A stretch of DNA of 37,620 bases from Candidatus Brevefilum sp. (lineage in GTDB: Bacteria > Chloroflexota > Anaerolineae > Anaerolineales > Anaerolineaceae), in contig JARGGB010000028.1 in NCBI GenBank assembly GCA_029210815.1, forward strand, positions 1 to 37,620. The letters run 5' to 3'. The translations under genes were made by a program, and so were the position numbers. A model generated the notes under the pieces. It ran no database searches and was not told the origin of the DNA. It saw only the letters and a program-made list of their open reading frames with translations. Shown piece after piece: positions 3,574-28,630 of the stretch. Positions within the stretch are counted from its first letter, which is position 1; every line of letters starts with the position of its first letter.

Positions 3574-5817
3574 TTAGCTGATATTGAGCTGTGATCGCAG
3601 GTGTTCTGCGGTGTGTGAGTTTTTAGCGTTGAGCATTTCACGGGGTGTGCCTTTAAAGATGATCTGCCCACCTTTTGTCCCGCCTTCAGGACCCAGGTCA
3701 ATCACCCAATCGGCATTCTTAACGATTTCCAGATTGTGTTCAATGACGACCACTGTGTTTCCTTCATCCACAAGCTGATTTAGCATCGATAGGAATTTCT
3801 CTAAATCTGCCATGTGCAGACTGACTGTTGGCTCATCGAGAATGTATATGCTGCCTGATTTTTGGAGCACCGCAGATAACTTAATGCGCTGGCTTTCACC
3901 GCCTGAATACGTGCTCAAGGCTTGACCGAGGGTCAGATAGCCCAGCCCGACATCTTCCAGGGTTTTGAGCTGCTTGATCAGGCTGGTTCCCTCGAAAAAT
4001 GATAAAGCCTCCAGGACTGTCTTCTCCAGGACATCGCTAATGGATTTCCCCCGCCATGTATAATCAAGCACCGCTTGTTTGAAGCGTTTTCCCTTGCAGC
4101 TTTCACACCTTGATTTCACAGGGTCCATAAAGGGGAGTGATATCTCAATTGTCCCCGAGCCATTACATTCAGGGCAGGCACCTTTGGAATTGAAGCTGAA
4201 AAGTGACCGACTTACCTTGTTGGCATCCGCAAAAAGATCGCGTATCTCATCCATCATGCCAGCGTATGTTGCTGTAATGGATCGCGAGGAGCTTTGTATC
4301 GGGGATTGGTCGAAATAGATGGCTTGTGGATAGTCTTCTAAAAATGCTTCCATCAAACTGCTTTTACCCGCACCTGCCACACCAGTGATTACGCTCAGGA
4401 CACCCTCTGGGATGTCAACGGTGATATTTTTCAGATTGTGTTTTGTCGCATTATGGATGGTGAATTTTCCGGCGGCTTGTCTAAATGAACCCTTGATGCT
4501 GTTTTTACGCTTCAAATACTGTCCTGTCAGGGTTTGTGACTTTAACAAACCCTCCAGAGTCCCCTGGTAAACGATTTCACCGCCGTCTTTCCCTGCATCC
4601 GGTCCTAAATCGACAATGTGATCGGCAATGGCGATCACATCGGGGTCGTGTTCCACAACCAGTACGGTGTTGCCCATATCTCGGAATGCTTGCAGCATTT
4701 TATTCAATCCCTGGACATCATGCGGGTGCAGTCCGATGGTGGGCTCATCGAAGATATAAGTGAGATCTGTCAGGCTGCTGCCAAGATGCCGAATCATTTT
4801 GATGCGCTGGGCTTCCCCTGCAGAAAGGGTCATGGTTGGACGGTCAAGCGTCAAATAGTCCAAGCCCAGGGTGACCAGGTGCGATAAACCATCATTGATT
4901 GAGGAAATGATTGGGGCGGCTTTTGGACTGTCGACAGCAGATAAAAACGCAAGCAGCGGTTTAGCTTCTAAGCTCGCCAACTGGGCTATATTTTTCCCGT
5001 TGATTTTGCTGCTTAATGCTTGTCGATTAAGGCGGGTTCCAAGGCACAGCGGACAGATTCCCCGTGTTGTGACATTTTCGATTGCCAGTTGGGTTTCTTC
5101 ACTTAAAGCTGTAATATCTTTTTTTAAATAACGGCGTGTGAATGTCTCTATCAGCCCTGCGTAATTGCGCAGAAAAATGTCCTGCTCGTCTTTCAATCGA
5201 GGGTGTTCTTTGTCACCGTGCAGGAACATTTGCCATTCTTCCGCGGTGTAATATGCTAATTTTTTATCCCCATTGAAAAGTCCCAGGCTGGCATAGCGCT
5301 GCCATTGGTAACTGAGGATTGGAAACCTGATTGCCCCCTGGTTGATTGATTTATCTCGGTCCAGGAGTTTTTCAAGGTCAAGATTTACTTTTTCCCCAAG
5401 CCCGTCGCACTCCGGGCACATGCCTTCTGGTTCGTTAAAGGAAAAGGCATTGGAAAAACCGATGTGCGGTTCACCGATTCGCGAAAATAAGAGGCGAAGC
5501 AAAGAAAATATCTCGGTAATTGTCCTTACTGTTGATCGATTGTTTCCCCGGATTTGTTTCTGATTGATGACCACCGATGCAGTCAGGTTTTGCAGCGAAT
5601 CGGCATCCGGCCTGCCGGCAAGGGGCAGGTAGTTGGTGAAGGTCGCGTTGAGCTGTCTTTGCGCTTCTGCTGCGATAGTGTCAAAAACAAGGGAGGATTT
5701 CCCTGCCCCTGAAACCCCTGTGAAGACCGTAATTTTGCCTTTGGGTATTTCCAGGGAGATGTTTTTGAGGTTATTTTCCCTGGCACCTGTTATCCTGATT
5801 GCGTTTTTCATCGACAA
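3574..5817 (-). CDS. UvrA-like double ABC ATPase without the UvrB-binding domain (DrrC-type)
   Basis: The protein has 747 residues against about 940 for housekeeping UvrA. Two UvrA-type ATPase halves are clear: Walker [10 protein letters not shown] (about 34-42) with signature [10 protein letters not shown] and Walker [13 protein letters not shown]; then GVAGAGKSS with [10 protein letters not shown] and [11 protein letters not shown]. Zinc-finger cysteines are present ([20 protein letters not shown] with CESCKG). After the [10 protein letters not shown] motif the chain goes straight to CPEC, so the UvrB-interaction insertion of true UvrA is missing. Known short relatives include DrrC of anthracycline producers, linked to self-protection from DNA-binding drugs. 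A role in recognising or releasing DNA adducts is inferred. Its ATG is preceded by AGAAAGATGATC, a weak SD. It is followed by the convergent 135-residue gene. Confidence 0.88.
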
Positions 5818-6119: not shown

Positions 6120-6311
6120 TTAGAAAATCGCAATTAACAGGACAATTGGTAAGGCTAAGAATATACCTACTACTACCAGAATGGCAAGAGCGGCACCTAA
6201 GAGGCCAAACGCCAAACCAAAAACGCCGCCGATCAGACCCGTTACAAGGCCAAACAAGCCTTCAATTAAACCAAGAATTAATCCAACAAGACCTTCAATT
6301 AAACCAATCAT
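6120..6311 (-). CDS. 63-residue glycine/leucine-rich membrane peptide with 11-residue repeats
   Basis: The frame has an excellent SD (AAAGGAG at 6319-6325, 7 nt from the ATG), which supports a real gene. The product is almost wholly hydrophobic. It splits into 11-mers with Gly-Leu or Gly-Ile at the start: GLIEGLVGLIL, GLIEGLFGLVT, GLIGGVFGLAF and GLLGAALAILV, followed by a strongly hydrophobic end. Only two acidic residues and no basic ones are present. The underlying DNA carries two copies of CCTTCAATTAAACCAA on the plus strand, so the repeat arose partly by recent duplication. It is likely a membrane-embedded or amphipathic helix peptide. The function is unknown. Toxin-like, channel-like or structural roles are all possible, and nothing nearby decides. 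Confidence 0.6.
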   Translation of the reverse strand: MIGLIEGLVGLILGLIEGLFGLVTGLIGGVFGLAFGLLGAALAILVVVGIFLALPIVLLIAIF

Positions 6312-6416: not shown

Positions 6417-7817
6417 TTAACGAGACCTGGCGGACTTATATGAATCCAGCGTTCGCTGCCGGGCGAATTTATGATCCACGATTCTTTGTGGATAGTTTTT
6501 ACCGAGTTTGAAATTGTGGGATTTCGCTTCCTCTTGGGTCATTTTCCAGGGTTCATGACGATATTTTATGGGCAATTCGCTTAACTCTGGGACCCACCTG
6601 GCAATATATTCGCCATCGGGATCATGTTTTTGTCCCTGGAGAACCGGGTTGAAAATTCTGAAGTAGGGGGCTGCATCGGTACCGGTGCCGGCAGACCACT
6701 GCCAGCCGCCATTGTTGGCAGCGGGGTCGCCGTCGACAAGATTCGCCATGAACCAGGATTCTCCCTCCTGCCAGTTGATGAGCAGGTCTTTGGTCAGAAA
6801 AGATGCCGCGATCATCCTTCCGCGGTTATGCATCCAACCAGTGTTTAATAACTGGCGCATGCAGGCGTCTACAATTGGGAAGCCGGTTTGCCCCTCCTGC
6901 CAGGCTTGCAGGTCTTCGGGTGCATTCCGCCAACGGATATCCTTGTAATCCTCACGGAAGGGTCCGTCCATAACTCGTGGGAAGTGATAAAGGATGGCTG
7001 TGTAAAATTCTCGCCAAACAAGTTCATCCATCCAGGTGCTGATCTCTGAACGCTTCTGATCACCTTTCGCCTGTATCCTGGCGACCTGGGCTTTTGCAAA
7101 GGCTTCCCTTGGCGAGATCAAGCCAAAACGCAGGTAAGGGGAGAGCTGAGAAGTGCCTTCCAGACCCATGCGGTCGCGCCGGCTCTGGTATTTTTCAATA
7201 TCATTCTCAATAAAGCTGGAGAGTCGGTTTCTGGCTTCTTCTTCTGTTCCCGGGAAACCAGCCGGGGCATCTGCTTCTTGCAGGGAGTCTGTCTGCAAGC
7301 CTTCAGGTAGAGGAGGTAGTTTTTCTGGTGCCGGCAGGATGGCAACGGGTGTTGGCAGGGGCTTTTCGTACCAGGTGTTCTTGTAGGGTGTGAAAACGAC
7401 ATAGGGGTCACCATCGTTCTTCAACACCGATGTCGGATGACGCAGAACCACACCCTGTGAGAATTTAAGGTTAAAATTTGCTTTTATTTCCTCGTCCCGG
7501 TGACGGGCAAAGGGACTGAAATCCTCGTGGGCATAAATTGCCATGTCCTCAAGGTCTTCACTTAAAGATTGGAAAGCTTTGTTTGCAGGCCCCTGGCGTA
7601 TGATCAGCTGACTTCCCCTTTTTTTAAGCTGCTGGTCCAGGTCAGCGAGGGCACTCAACAGGAAAGCCCGTCGTTTAGGTGCGGCTTCTAACATCAACTC
7701 GGGTTCGATGATGAACAGGGGGACCATGTAATCTGCCCTTTCAAGGGCGGCATGCAGGGTTTGATTGTCACTAAGGCGGATATCCCTTCGGATCCACCAG
7801 ATATTTGTTTGGCTCAT
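6417..7817 (-). CDS. phrB: Deoxyribodipyrimidine photolyase (CPD class I)
   Basis: The protein has 466 residues, a normal length. The N-terminal Rossmann-like domain (about 1-130; MSQTNIWWIRRDIRLSDN) binds the antenna cofactor. The C-terminal FAD domain shows TSQLSPYLRFGLIS, WMDELVWREFY, GFPIVDACMRQL, TGWMHNRGRM and NGGWQWSAGTGTDAAPYFRIFNP, all hallmarks of CPD photolyases. It repairs UV-made cyclobutane dimers in DNA using light. Its ATG has AAAGGAG upstream. The 64 bp before it contain no strong promoter, but an intrinsic terminator and a small upstream transcription unit lie just beyond (7881-8092), so part of its expression may depend on read-through from there. Confidence 0.95.
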   Translation of the reverse strand: MSQTNIWWIRRDIRLSDNQTLHAALERADYMVPLFIIEPELMLEAAPKRRAFLLSALADLDQQLKKRGSQLIIRQGPANKAFQSLSEDLEDMAIYAHEDFSPFARHRDEEIKANFNLKFSQGVVLRHPTSVLKNDGDPYVVFTPYKNTWYEKPLPTPVAILPAPEKLPPLPEGLQTDSLQEADAPAGFPGTEEEARNRLSSFIENDIEKYQSRRDRMGLEGTSQLSPYLRFGLISPREAFAKAQVARIQAKGDQKRSEISTWMDELVWREFYTAILYHFPRVMDGPFREDYKDIRWRNAPEDLQAWQEGQTGFPIVDACMRQLLNTGWMHNRGRMIAASFLTKDLLINWQEGESWFMANLVDGDPAANNGGWQWSAGTGTDAAPYFRIFNPVLQGQKHDPDGEYIARWVPELSELPIKYRHEPWKMTQEEAKSHNFKLGKNYPQRIVDHKFARQRTLDSYKSARSR

Positions 7818-7880: not shown

Positions 7881-7910
7881 TAAAAGAAAGCCGCCCGGTC
7901 AGCGGGCGGC
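7881..7910 (-). terminator. Intrinsic terminator between the 17-residue frame and phrB
   Basis: On the minus strand, GCCGCCCG (7903-7910) and CGGGCGGC (7890-7897) pair perfectly around a 5-nt loop and are followed by TTTCTTTTA. This is a strong factor-independent terminator. It ends the short unit that starts near 8057 and sits 63 bp before the phrB start, so it could act as an attenuator. Confidence 0.85.
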
Positions 7911-7939
7911 GTTTCCTCGTTCTTTGGCCGTAGCACCAA

Positions 7940-7993
7940 TTATCGAATGTTCCCGAGGAGTGGTGCCACAGCCGTTGTTAAGTTACTAAACAT
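7940..7993 (-). CDS. 17-residue small reading frame or leader peptide upstream of phrB
   Basis: ATG at 7993, stop TAA at 7940-7942; the peptide reads MFSNLTTAVAPLLGNIR. It has a perfect SD (GGAGGT at 8002-8007) at the ideal 8-nt spacing, a near-consensus promoter upstream and an intrinsic terminator downstream. There is no run of one amino acid as in biosynthetic leader peptides. The codons from 7965 to 7955 form the anti-SD arm of a hairpin with the ribosome site, so translation and folding are coupled. It could be a leader peptide controlling phrB, a small protein in its own right, or an incidental frame inside a regulatory RNA. Confidence 0.5.
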   Translation of the reverse strand: MFSNLTTAVAPLLGNIR

Positions 7994-8009
7994 AGTACAC
8001 CACCTCCTC
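7955..8009 (-). promoter_or_regulatory. Hairpin that sequesters the SD of the 17-residue frame
   Basis: On the minus strand, GAGGAGGTGGTG (7998-8009) contains the SD. CACCACTCCTC (7955-7965), inside the reading frame, can pair with it along 11 bp with one bulged G. The loop holds the start codon and the first codons. A second small stem (AGAAGC with GCTTCT) lies upstream near 8029-8047. This is the layout of a translation-controlled or ligand-controlled leader. Confidence 0.6.
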
Positions 8010-8063
8010 TTTTCGTGGGATAGCAAGGTTGAGAAGCGAGAAGGCTTCTAAATTGTTGAGTAT

Positions 8064-8092
8064 AGTATCACATAAGAGGGGGGCTTTGTCAA
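8064..8092 (-). promoter_or_regulatory. sigma70-type promoter of the small transcription unit
   Basis: On the minus strand, TTGACA (8087-8092) and GATACT (8064-8069) are separated by 17 bp. Transcription should start near 8057, giving an RNA of about 180 nt up to the terminator at 7881. Confidence 0.7.
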
Positions 8093-8286: not shown

Positions 8287-8550
8287 TTATTCTCCAAAGT
8301 CTGAATTGATGAGCTCAGATAATGCCTGGATGGCTTCCACCTCATCAGCACCTTCAGCTTGAATTTTAATTTCAGAATTTGCGCCAACGCCCATGCTCAG
8401 TACGCTGAGGATGCTTTTTGCATTCGCGGTTTTGTCTTTAAAATCAACGGTGATGTTCGATTCATATTGTGCCGCTGTTTTCACGAACAAAGCTGCTGGT
8501 CTGGCGTGTAAGCCCACTGGGTTTGTGACCGTAATGGTTAATTCCTGCAT
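8287..8550 (-). CDS. ptsH: Phosphocarrier protein HPr
   Basis: The protein has 87 residues, the usual HPr length. His15 lies in GLHARPA, the site phosphorylated by enzyme I, and Ser46 lies in AKSILSV, the regulatory site used by HPr kinase in many bacteria. HPr passes phosphate from enzyme I to EIIA proteins, here most likely the glucitol-type IIA encoded at 15.6 kb. No ptsI is in the window. The gene is divergent from the SorC regulator of the PTS cluster. Upstream are a TTGACT-16-TAATAT promoter and a large hairpin in the presumed 5' leader. The SD is GGAGAG directly before the ATG. Confidence 0.96.
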   Translation of the reverse strand: MQELTITVTNPVGLHARPAALFVKTAAQYESNITVDFKDKTANAKSILSVLSMGVGANSEIKIQAEGADEVEAIQALSELINSDFGE

Positions 8551-8698: not shown

Positions 8699-8883
8699 TT
8701 AAGTTAGCATGGGACAGCCAGAATAATCACAGCGCAGTTGGCGAGAATTTGTCAAGGCTTTTTTCTAAGCCAATAAAGGACCCAAATCACCAGGAGCTGT
8801 TGCTCTAATCATTTATTGTGTTTTAAAAAACTTTGGGTTCCCTTTAGCGTTTGAAATTCGCCTGAAATTTGCGAAAATTGACC

Positions 8884-8912
8884 TTGACAGCGGGAAAAAA
8901 TTTTTATATAAT
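8884..8912 (+). promoter_or_regulatory. Consensus promoter of the SorC regulator and PTS/dehydrogenase cluster
   Basis: TTGACA (8884-8889) and TATAAT (8907-8912) are perfect consensus boxes with a 17-bp spacer. Transcription should start near 8919, inside the first operator repeat. Confidence 0.85.
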
Positions 8913-8945
8913 TCACATATGTGAAACTCAAATTACATATGTGAA
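8912..8945 (+). promoter_or_regulatory. Tandem operator repeats for the SorC regulator
   Basis: TTCACATATGTGAA (8912-8925) is a perfect 14-bp palindrome that begins at the last base of the -10 box. ACATATGTGAA occurs twice (8915-8925 and 8935-8945), exactly 20 bp apart, so both copies face the same side of the helix. The position over the transcription start suggests repression of the regulator's own promoter. Assignment to this regulator is inference from location. Confidence 0.7.
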
Positions 8946-8958
8946 TTTGTGGAGTGAT

Positions 8959-9924
8959 GTGACAGAATTCGGTCTTCCAGAAGAACGGGTCAAGCTTTTG
9001 GCAAATATCGCAGAAATGTATTTCAGGGAGGGTAAAAACCAATCTGAGATCGCGGCTGTGGTTGGCATGACACGCTCAAATGTTTCCAGATTATTAAAAG
9101 AAGCCAGAGAATCAGGTGTTGTCCAAATTCATATTAATCACCCCATCAATGAAAACCAAACACTCGCTCAACAATTGATCGAGCGTTTTAATTTAATTGA
9201 TGCAAAAATCATTGATGTTACCCAATTTGATGAACTGCTCCCAAAATTAGGACGCGCTGCTGGTAAAGAATTGATCAAGTACTTGCGACCTGGCTGTGTT
9301 TTAGGAACTGCCTGGGGTACAGCAATTAGCGCAACAGTTGACCAGGTGGAAATGAAAATCCCGATACCGGGGATAAAAGTTGTGCAATTACTGGGCGCTC
9401 AAGGTGCACATATTAAGGAATATGACGGACATGCTATTGTAAGGCGTCTGGAAGAGAAATTTGGTGCAGAAGGCATTTATTTTCATGCCCCATTTTTTGT
9501 TGAAGACAGCCGCATGTCAGAATTGATCATGCAGTCGAAGAGCATTGAAGAAATTGTAGAAATGGCAGAGGAGGCAGACGTTGCGCTGCTTGGGGTTGGA
9601 AGTATCGATATTGATCATTCCAGCTATTACTTAGCCGGGTATATCTCAAAAGAAGAAATACTGGCTATCCAGGAAGAAGGCGTTGTTGGTGATGTCTGTG
9701 CTAAATTCTTTGATTCCGGTGGGAACCTGGTCAATCATGATTTGAAAGATCGGATGATTGGAATACCGGCCAAAGTTTTGATGAAAATTCCAGTTCGATT
9801 GGGTGTTGCGGGTGGCCTGGCAAAGGTTGAGCCCATTATCGGTGCATTAAAAGGAAACTTTATTAATATTCTTGTTTCGGACACGGCTACGGCTGTTGAA
9901 GTGTTGAAAAGAACGCAGAATTAG
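8959..9924 (+). CDS. SorC/DeoR-type sugar-responsive transcriptional regulator
   Basis: About 321 residues from the GTG at 8959, which has GGAG 4 nt upstream. A GTG at 8941 is in frame but lies inside the second operator repeat, and a longer upstream frame would cover the promoter. The N-terminal helix-turn-helix reads YFREGKNQSEIAAVVGMTRSNVSRLLKEARESG. The rest is the SorC sugar-binding domain, with GTAWGTAI, HAPFFVED, LLGVGSID, DRMIGI and the C-terminal VAGGLAKVEPIIGALKG motif. Members bind a phosphorylated sugar or polyol, often the PTS product, and control the linked catabolic genes. The E1alpha gene follows 27 bp later, so it probably heads the operon and controls itself through the tandem operators. 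Confidence 0.92.
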   Translation: MTEFGLPEERVKLLANIAEMYFREGKNQSEIAAVVGMTRSNVSRLLKEARESGVVQIHINHPINENQTLAQQLIERFNLIDAKIIDVTQFDELLPKLGRAAGKELIKYLRPGCVLGTAWGTAISATVDQVEMKIPIPGIKVVQLLGAQGAHIKEYDGHAIVRRLEEKFGAEGIYFHAPFFVEDSRMSELIMQSKSIEEIVEMAEEADVALLGVGSIDIDHSSYYLAGYISKEEILAIQEEGVVGDVCAKFFDSGGNLVNHDLKDRMIGIPAKVLMKIPVRLGVAGGLAKVEPIIGALKGNFINILVSDTATAVEVLKRTQN

Positions 9925-28498: not shown

Positions 28499-28511
28499 GT
28501 GTTGTCGCAAT

Positions 28512-28603
28512 CTCATCCCTCCGCCGGCATTATCCGGATCAGGTCTTGCGGGTCGAAGATTTGCATCTTCCTCTCAGCCTGTGTGATCAGGCTCCCCGTT
28601 CAA
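28512..28603 (-). ncRNA. TPP riboswitch (THI element)
   Basis: Read on the minus strand, it has the conserved blocks in order: CGGGGAGCCTG, GGCTGAGAGGAAG, ACCCGCAAGACCTGATCCGG, and ATAATGCCGGCGGAGGGA. These are the hallmark stems of the thiamine pyrophosphate aptamer. It precedes thiN and the thiamine-type transporter and probably switches them off when TPP is plentiful, through the hairpin at 28463-28498. Confidence 0.97.
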
Positions 28604-28630
28604 CTGTCATGATTATTTTATTATGTTGAT

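Follow-up and report, generated by a model that had tools for sequence, protein, structure and literature searches.

The window, that is, the whole stretch of 37,620 nucleotides that was analysed, belongs to a contig of Candidatus Brevefilum sp. (JARGGB010000028.1). Using Pfam, an HPr gene is found at 8287-8550 and a photolyase gene at 6417-7817, and these two genes flank the element considered here. The end of the element lies 63 bp before the start of phrB at 7817, on the same strand, phrB being recognised by its Pfam photolyase domains. In this interval, an earlier note had described a promoter, a small stem, a Shine-Dalgarno (SD) sequence, a frame of 17 codons and a terminator on the minus strand, and all five are indeed found there. 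The layout is as follows, from the promoter to the terminator:

8087-8092, minus strand: -35 hexamer TTGACA; the exact hexamer occurs in 51 of the 67 promoters found among the genus representatives.
8064-8072, minus strand: extended -10 TGTGATACT, consisting of GATACT (8069-8064) and an upstream TG, behind a 17-nt spacer.
7881-8057, minus strand: inferred transcript of about 177 nt, its start predicted from the -10 and its end from the terminator.
8033-8048, minus strand: small 5' stem-loop GAAGC-cttctc-GCTTC, from the predicted fold.
8012-8026, minus strand: conserved 5' motif (TT)GCTATCC(CACGAA), from alignment A3.
7998-8010, minus strand: strand 1, the SD sequence AGAGGAGGTGGTG, with the SD GAGGAGGTG from 8009.
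7940-7993, minus strand: micro-ORF of 17 codons plus TAA, starting with ATG at 7993; peptide MFSNLTTAVAPLLGNIR.
7955-7973, minus strand: strand 2, within the ORF; 7961-7973 pairs with strand 3 and 7955-7965 with strand 1.
7926-7938, minus strand: strand 3, TGGTGCTACGGCC, just 3' of the stop codon; 13 bp with strand 2.
7881-7910, minus strand: intrinsic terminator GCCGCCCG-ctgac-CGGGCGGC followed by a U tract (stem 7910-7890, U tract to 7881).

Taken alone, promoter- and terminator-like motifs are weak evidence in this DNA (21 versus 8.5 expected and 18 versus 7.2 expected, respectively, in the 6 kb scanned). The tail of the organism's own 16S rRNA, GGATCACCTCCTTTC, is present once in the genome. 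Two helices can be drawn around strand 2. In helix 1:2, the SD GAGGAG(G)TGGTG (8009-7998) faces CACCACTCCTC (7965-7955) and can form 11 pairs, as had been noticed earlier, with one bulged G. In helix 2:3, GGCTGTGGCACCA (7973-7961) forms 13 bp with strand 3 (7938-7926), and this helix is part of the minimum free energy fold (z of -5.5; none of 200 shuffles as stable). When strand 3 is left out, the window RNA is predicted to fold into helix 1:2, and with strand 3 present it is predicted to fold into helix 2:3.

Other features of the window may be mentioned here. A perfect TTGACA-17-TATAAT promoter followed by two similar palindromes, TTCACATATGTGAA (8912-8925) and TTACATATGTGAA (8933-8945), is found within 8884-8949, where the ORF 8869-9924 begins; this ORF encodes a SorC-type regulator whose sugar-binding domain is PF04198. 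A dehydrogenase-complex operon stands behind this ORF, and the palindromes are probably the operator of the regulator; the same palindrome also occurs near the element at locus L010. A TPP riboswitch (RF00059, 67 bits) is located at 28499-28608 on the minus strand. Finally, a very hydrophobic, glycine-rich and repetitive ORF of 63 amino acids (MIGLIEGLVGLILGLIEGLFGL..., 6120-6311, minus strand) is placed between the photolyase gene and an ABC-type gene (3574-5817).

The earlier note had judged a chance assembly of these parts unlikely, and this is borne out by conservation. With a 220 bp query, blastn retrieves the element from 14 of the 15 other genomes of the same genus (E≤3.3e-15), which rules out chance; the sole genome without a match, G007, is 71% complete. 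The organism's own genome has one copy, five further blastn matches having E≥1.7. Two models were then used at larger distances: R1, a covariance model that contains the 2:3 pairs, and R2, which models the 5' half of the element from sequence alone. The genomes searched were those of Chloroflexota, 151 from a single outgroup phylum and 25 from one further order. R1 detects the element in 92/147 genomes of the family at E≤0.1 (88/147 at E≤7e-11 by our count), in 199/301 genomes of the order at E≤0.001 (133 of the 174 of good quality) and in 57/400 genomes of the phylum at E≤0.001. R2 detects it in 166/298 genomes of the class at E≤1e-4, each genome listed giving exactly one match. At the level of the phylum, R2 matches about 107/400 genomes at E≤1e-4, a hand count that includes two matches that look false (G482 and G589), and 178/400 at E≤0.02. 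None of the 151 genomes of the outgroup phylum matches R2 at E≤1e-4 (best 3.2e-4), and 20 of them match at E≤0.02, so that the looser figure for the phylum must hold chance matches. Genera g15 and g17 are mostly devoid of the element, which is therefore dispensable.

A pattern scan gave at least 120 matches; the 80 listed are in Chloroflexota records, among them the cultured Anaerolinea thermolimosa IMO-1, with the exception of L160 and L170. The record L160 (CP070731, labelled Flavobacteriaceae bin416) holds a full copy of the element. Because 24 other genomes of its order have no element at E≤0.02, and because the gene that immediately precedes the copy shares 70% identity over 453 amino acids with one beside the copy of L295, from the window's order, L160 was taken as a chimeric or misjoined record and not as evidence for presence in Flavobacteriaceae; it may instead reflect a transfer. 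The match in L170, labelled as an archaeon, was discarded as a chance match, since it looks like coding sequence by eye and R2 does not match there at E≤0.05. Mobility of the element was also rejected, as no plasmid or phage match to the element of the window was found and the pattern is absent from viral contigs. Two copies in one genome were seen in G169 (contigs C357 and C353) and in G035 (two places on C64); the score of the C357 copy (E 1.7e-30) resembles the scores seen in the window's genus, and this copy may be a contamination. The relatives are mostly present as one copy per genome across much of Chloroflexota.

For the comparisons that follow, 120 members found with R1 and 40 distant loci found with R2 were picked across families from the matches listed, non-randomly, the window being outside the 120. 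A promoter of the TTGACA/TATAAT type ending 35-110 nt upstream of the SD was found in 67 of 78 genus representatives, compared with 4 of 225 control windows. Of these 67 promoters, 51 have exact TTGACA and 57 are TG-extended; the remaining 11 of the 78 representatives had no promoter by the pattern used. A terminator-like structure follows the element in 76/79 representatives versus 50/228 control windows. These figures support the view that the element is an autonomous, phylum-wide putative transcription unit, and it is in this sense that the earlier suggestion of an independent small protein or regulatory RNA holds.

The same note had also proposed an attenuator for the photolyase gene. Such a role, as a transcription attenuator or leader for phrB, is suggested by the position 63 bp upstream on the same strand and by a photolyase-like gene downstream of 6 other loci of the family. 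However, at the 120 related loci (the window itself left out), 117 downstream genes could be called; 54 of them share the strand of the element (45 of these within 150 nt) and the other 63 are on the opposite one, and no common downstream gene was found among them. The commonest, at 19 loci, is a phosphofructokinase cluster in convergent orientation, identified by Pfam on one member. The photolyase-like cluster accounts for only 6 of the 117, all in the window's own family f1; by eye, a photolyase-like gene is also downstream at L009, L013 and L017, outside the 117-gene set. Because the neighbouring genes differ among relatives, the element is not a conserved phrB leader. Moreover, no competition between terminator and antiterminator was found in the fold of the window RNA, where blocking strand 3 leaves the terminator stem unchanged. 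The attenuator was rejected on synteny and on the element having a terminator-like structure of its own, and a role of this kind appears extremely unlikely.

This raises the question of what the unit encodes. In 120/120 members, a closed frame of 14-22 codons opens with an ATG whose distance from the start of GGAGGTG is 13-16 nt (L240 has GGGGGTG in place of GGAGGTG). When the position of the hairpin is determined without reference to the ORF, frame 0 has its first stop codon in the hairpin loop or the 3' arm in 79/79 representatives, compared with 10/79 and 3/79 for the other frames. Among 39 distant loci found by the 5' half alone, 34 have an ORF of 13-22 codons; the other frames give 8 and 1. 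Locus L372, which has two ATGs and an ambiguous start, was left out of this R2 set. The longest exact match of the SD to the complement of the 16S tail has a median of 10 nt in the 79 representatives; in Staphylococcus aureus, long pairing by extended SDs is reported to matter in some cases (PMC13009471). Comparison among the relatives thus shows that the putative unit and its open frame are conserved.

The peptide is a different matter. Within the window's class, it is fairly uniform (M.DSS...A(A/V)ASLL), the anti-SD part being mostly read as A(A/V)ASLL or ASP (A-S-L/A-S-P). Several outer families translate the corresponding RNA in a different register, as (S/R/G)-(I/V)-T, giving SITEG, RITSG or GVTAG. 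The RNA pairing has thus been kept through a change of reading frame, and the frame is still open. A recurrent feature across families is the N-terminus, M-x-(D/S)-S-S. The C-terminus is variable, with a terminal R or K in 41/79 representatives, and the ORF of L241 encodes an unrelated 22-mer. In the ORFs of members L066-L105 and L226-L305, serine codons at positions 2-6 are AGT in 209 of 225 cases, compared with 13 of 184 for later serine codons; this bias could stem from a function of the peptide, from codon-specific sensing or from an RNA motif. It can be proposed that the element is a micro-protein gene, of which the peptide of 14-22 residues would be the product and the helices the means of autoregulating its translation. 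The frame kept in every member, the shared N-terminus and, in the window's class, the common A(A/V)ASLL core and basic C-terminal residue speak for it. However, the A..SLL part is constrained by RNA pairing, and the change of register in other classes, the L241 peptide and the variable C-terminus also speak against it; we hold this explanation to be unlikely.

The small ORF and the sequestered SD also recall a type I toxin mRNA, and a promoter-like pattern on the opposite strand, seen in 9/79 representatives, is somewhat more frequent than in shorter control windows (4/225). Against this, the GRAVY of the 79 peptides has a median of 0.2 (range -1.95 to 1.56) and their best 12-residue window a median of 0.77, so that as a rule they are not predicted to form a membrane helix; in addition, the element is a single-copy, phylum-wide one with no link to plasmids, phages or viral contigs in the searches above. 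A toxin function is hardly credible on these grounds.

The two helices were compared by means of a swap test, in which the duplexes of native strands are set against those of strands exchanged between families. For helix 2:3, the native duplex is better in 77/79 representatives (-31.0 versus -23.7 kcal/mol when swapped), and for helix 1:2 in 70/79 (-24.5 versus -21.9 kcal/mol), control pairings being better in 35-36/79. Outside the order, the native duplex is better in 15/15 cases for 2:3 and 12/15 for 1:2. It should be noted that R1 contains the 2:3 pairs, so that the 2:3 statistics of the 120 members found with it lean towards 2:3, and the set found with R2 is the fairer test of the helices. 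In this set, which still counts three loci that look false-positive (L363, L365 and L374), 1:2 and 2:3 each beat the mean of the swaps in 29/39 loci, compared with 14-17/39 for controls; ranked among the swapped pairs, the native one reaches modest medians of 0.395 (1:2) and 0.237 (2:3), compared with 0.48-0.79 for controls. In alignment A4 (100 sequences, fitted to the 2:3 structure), double changes are found in 12 of the 13 pairs of helix 2:3, and none of 500 shuffles reaches any of the covariation measures. In several outer families, strand 3 is almost a copy of strand 1, GGTGATGCCC. Both helices have nucleotides of strand 2 in common in 79/79 representatives (median 12 nt), and the state with strand 1 free is predicted to be more stable than that with strand 3 free in 76/79, by a median of 8.2 kcal/mol.

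In five families (f38, f88, f91, f74 and f62), helix 1:2 is weak, with energies of -9.8 to -15.6 kcal/mol; as a consequence, the OFF state described below may not be universal, or these members may have been misread. The RNAalifold consensus on alignment A1 (without L019, for which a contig end falls in the element) gave helix 2:3 and a pairing of the 5' motif with the SD, and no helix 1:2. That alternative pairing of the 5' GCYATC region with strand 1 was not supported by the swap test (36/79), nor was a pairing of the same region with codons 1-5 (35/79). Overall, comparison shows the predicted helices 1:2 and 2:3 to coevolve and to be conserved, 1:2 not in every family. The SD-sequestering helix of the earlier note is supported by this coevolution, but it constitutes one half of a two-state structure, of which the 13-bp 2:3 hairpin had been overlooked. 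The same note had made its proposal depend on stems and frame being conserved in relatives; the helices and the frame are kept, but the small 5' stem-loop is, by eye, absent as such from most of them.

Two further explanations give the RNA itself the main part. The first one is a riboswitch-like or protein-binding element, in which an aptamer with the GCYATC and AGU motifs would control the micro-ORF. It draws on motifs that are conserved although they are not part of the helices (in alignment A3, the G, C and A of the 5' motif GC.A are near-invariant), and on a precedent, since PMC2864571 describes a riboswitch candidate before ORFs of typically 17-100 amino acids. However, only 42/79 representatives have AGTAGT in the opening 24 nt of the ORF, no conserved multi-helix aptamer was seen and no Rfam family matches at cut-off; we consider such an element quite unlikely. 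The second one is a trans-acting sRNA, whose C-rich anti-SD loop (CCCUCCUC) would block the SDs of other mRNAs, the ORF being secondary. In the window's order, the predicted 2:3 state does expose CUCCUC in a loop. Yet CUCC is lost in several families outside the order in which the pairing with their own strand 1 is kept (e.g., L234 and L238); inspection by eye and duplex calculations across families revealed no conserved accessible anti-SD loop, and an sRNA of this type would have no need of an open frame. This makes a dedicated anti-SD sRNA very unlikely.

Altogether, we consider it probable that the element is an autonomous sRNA or micro-mRNA whose SD is governed by a bistable switch, that selection acts on the process of being translated and not on the peptide, and that the RNA has its output in trans. 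The unit would consist of a strong sigma-70-type promoter and a transcript of about 150-200 nt with a near-perfect SD, an ORF of 14-22 codons and an intrinsic terminator. In the proposed OFF state, strand 2 would pair with strand 1, hiding the SD and/or the AUG. In the ON state, strand 2 would pair with strand 3, located after the stop codon, leaving strand 1 free; the two helices would be mutually exclusive. In a nascent or 3'-trimmed RNA lacking strand 3, helix 1:2 would be favored and the start site hidden, and the finished RNA is predicted to shift to helix 2:3, with the SD and the AUG open. A translating ribosome would then melt strand 2 and halt in the loop. Because it would pass strand 2 and stop in the loop, each round of translation may both open and reset the switch. 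That the act of translation is most likely what is selected follows from the frame being kept open while the peptide changes and the register shifts between classes.

Within the favored switch model, we infer that the unit is transcribed and translated, that the switch runs in the direction given above and that the output is exerted in trans. As there is no conserved downstream gene and, across classes, no conserved peptide, the output would be the RNA itself. The RNA may sense or titrate ribosome or initiation activity, and possible outputs are its own stability, a hold on 30S subunits or an activity in trans gated by translation. More tentatively, the element may be a stand-alone sensor of the translation state, where the micro-ORF allows the ribosome to read and reset a bistable RNA and where this RNA, and neither a gene nor a peptide, is the output; this version is possible, and we do not hold it with the same confidence. 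If it is true, the output would be titration of ribosomes or a trans-acting RNA gated by initiation. In either case, annotators would gain a model for a gene hidden by length cut-offs.

At the cut-offs of Rfam 15, no family matches the element in the window, where the TPP riboswitch is the only match elsewhere; at the loci of relatives (sets of 10 and 18), no match at the element reaches cut-off, including Downstream-peptide and Chloroflexi-1. The overlaps below threshold (Leu_leader, 30.3 bits of 50; SorY, 29.9 of 111; Bp1_684, 24.4 of 44; CC2171, 22.9 of 75) were taken as chance, a different family appearing in each locus, as was an ar14 match in L241 (E 0.53), on the opposite strand and touching the end of the element. 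Among the papers listed in searches of a library with few subscription journals, none describes the element by title or by the start of the abstract.

The leader-peptide attenuators of trp, his and leu operons have a short ORF over one arm of mutually exclusive hairpins, near a terminator, and the position of the ribosome picks the fold. Like them, the element has exclusive pairings that involve a short ORF, with a terminator nearby. Unlike them, it has no conserved downstream gene, its terminator is a separate hairpin and the predicted switch acts on its own SD and AUG. The logic of attenuators, in which an ORF belongs to an RNA switch, would here be uncoupled from the regulation of a downstream gene.

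In type I toxin mRNAs, among them hok and bsrG, cis elements hide the ribosome-binding site, and hok becomes active once its 3' end is processed and the RNA refolds (PMC8309996). The element shares with these the features of a small mRNA, a short ORF and a hidden ribosome-binding site; it differs in that its peptides are mostly not hydrophobic, and the only sign of an antisense RNA is the promoter-like pattern on the opposite strand in 9/79 representatives. Its predicted order is also the inverse of that described for hok, the finished RNA being ON and the RNA lacking its 3' part OFF. From the same phylum as the element, Chloroflexi-1 (RF01698) is a candidate RNA that PMC2864571 lists for Chloroflexus aggregans only, and it has no match at the element or at the loci of relatives. 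The Downstream-peptide motif was proposed to control a very short ORF in cyanobacteria, and this motif (yfr6) resembles the element in that a conserved RNA structure is tied to a very short ORF on a small transcript (PMC2864571). In the Downstream-peptide motif, the structured region is the 5' UTR of the ORF (PMC2864571), whereas in the element the ORF itself would be an arm of both helices; the Rfam results for the window and for the loci of relatives contain no match to this motif. With this difference, the Downstream-peptide motif (PMC2864571) is the nearest precedent that we have seen for a conserved RNA that would serve a tiny ORF.
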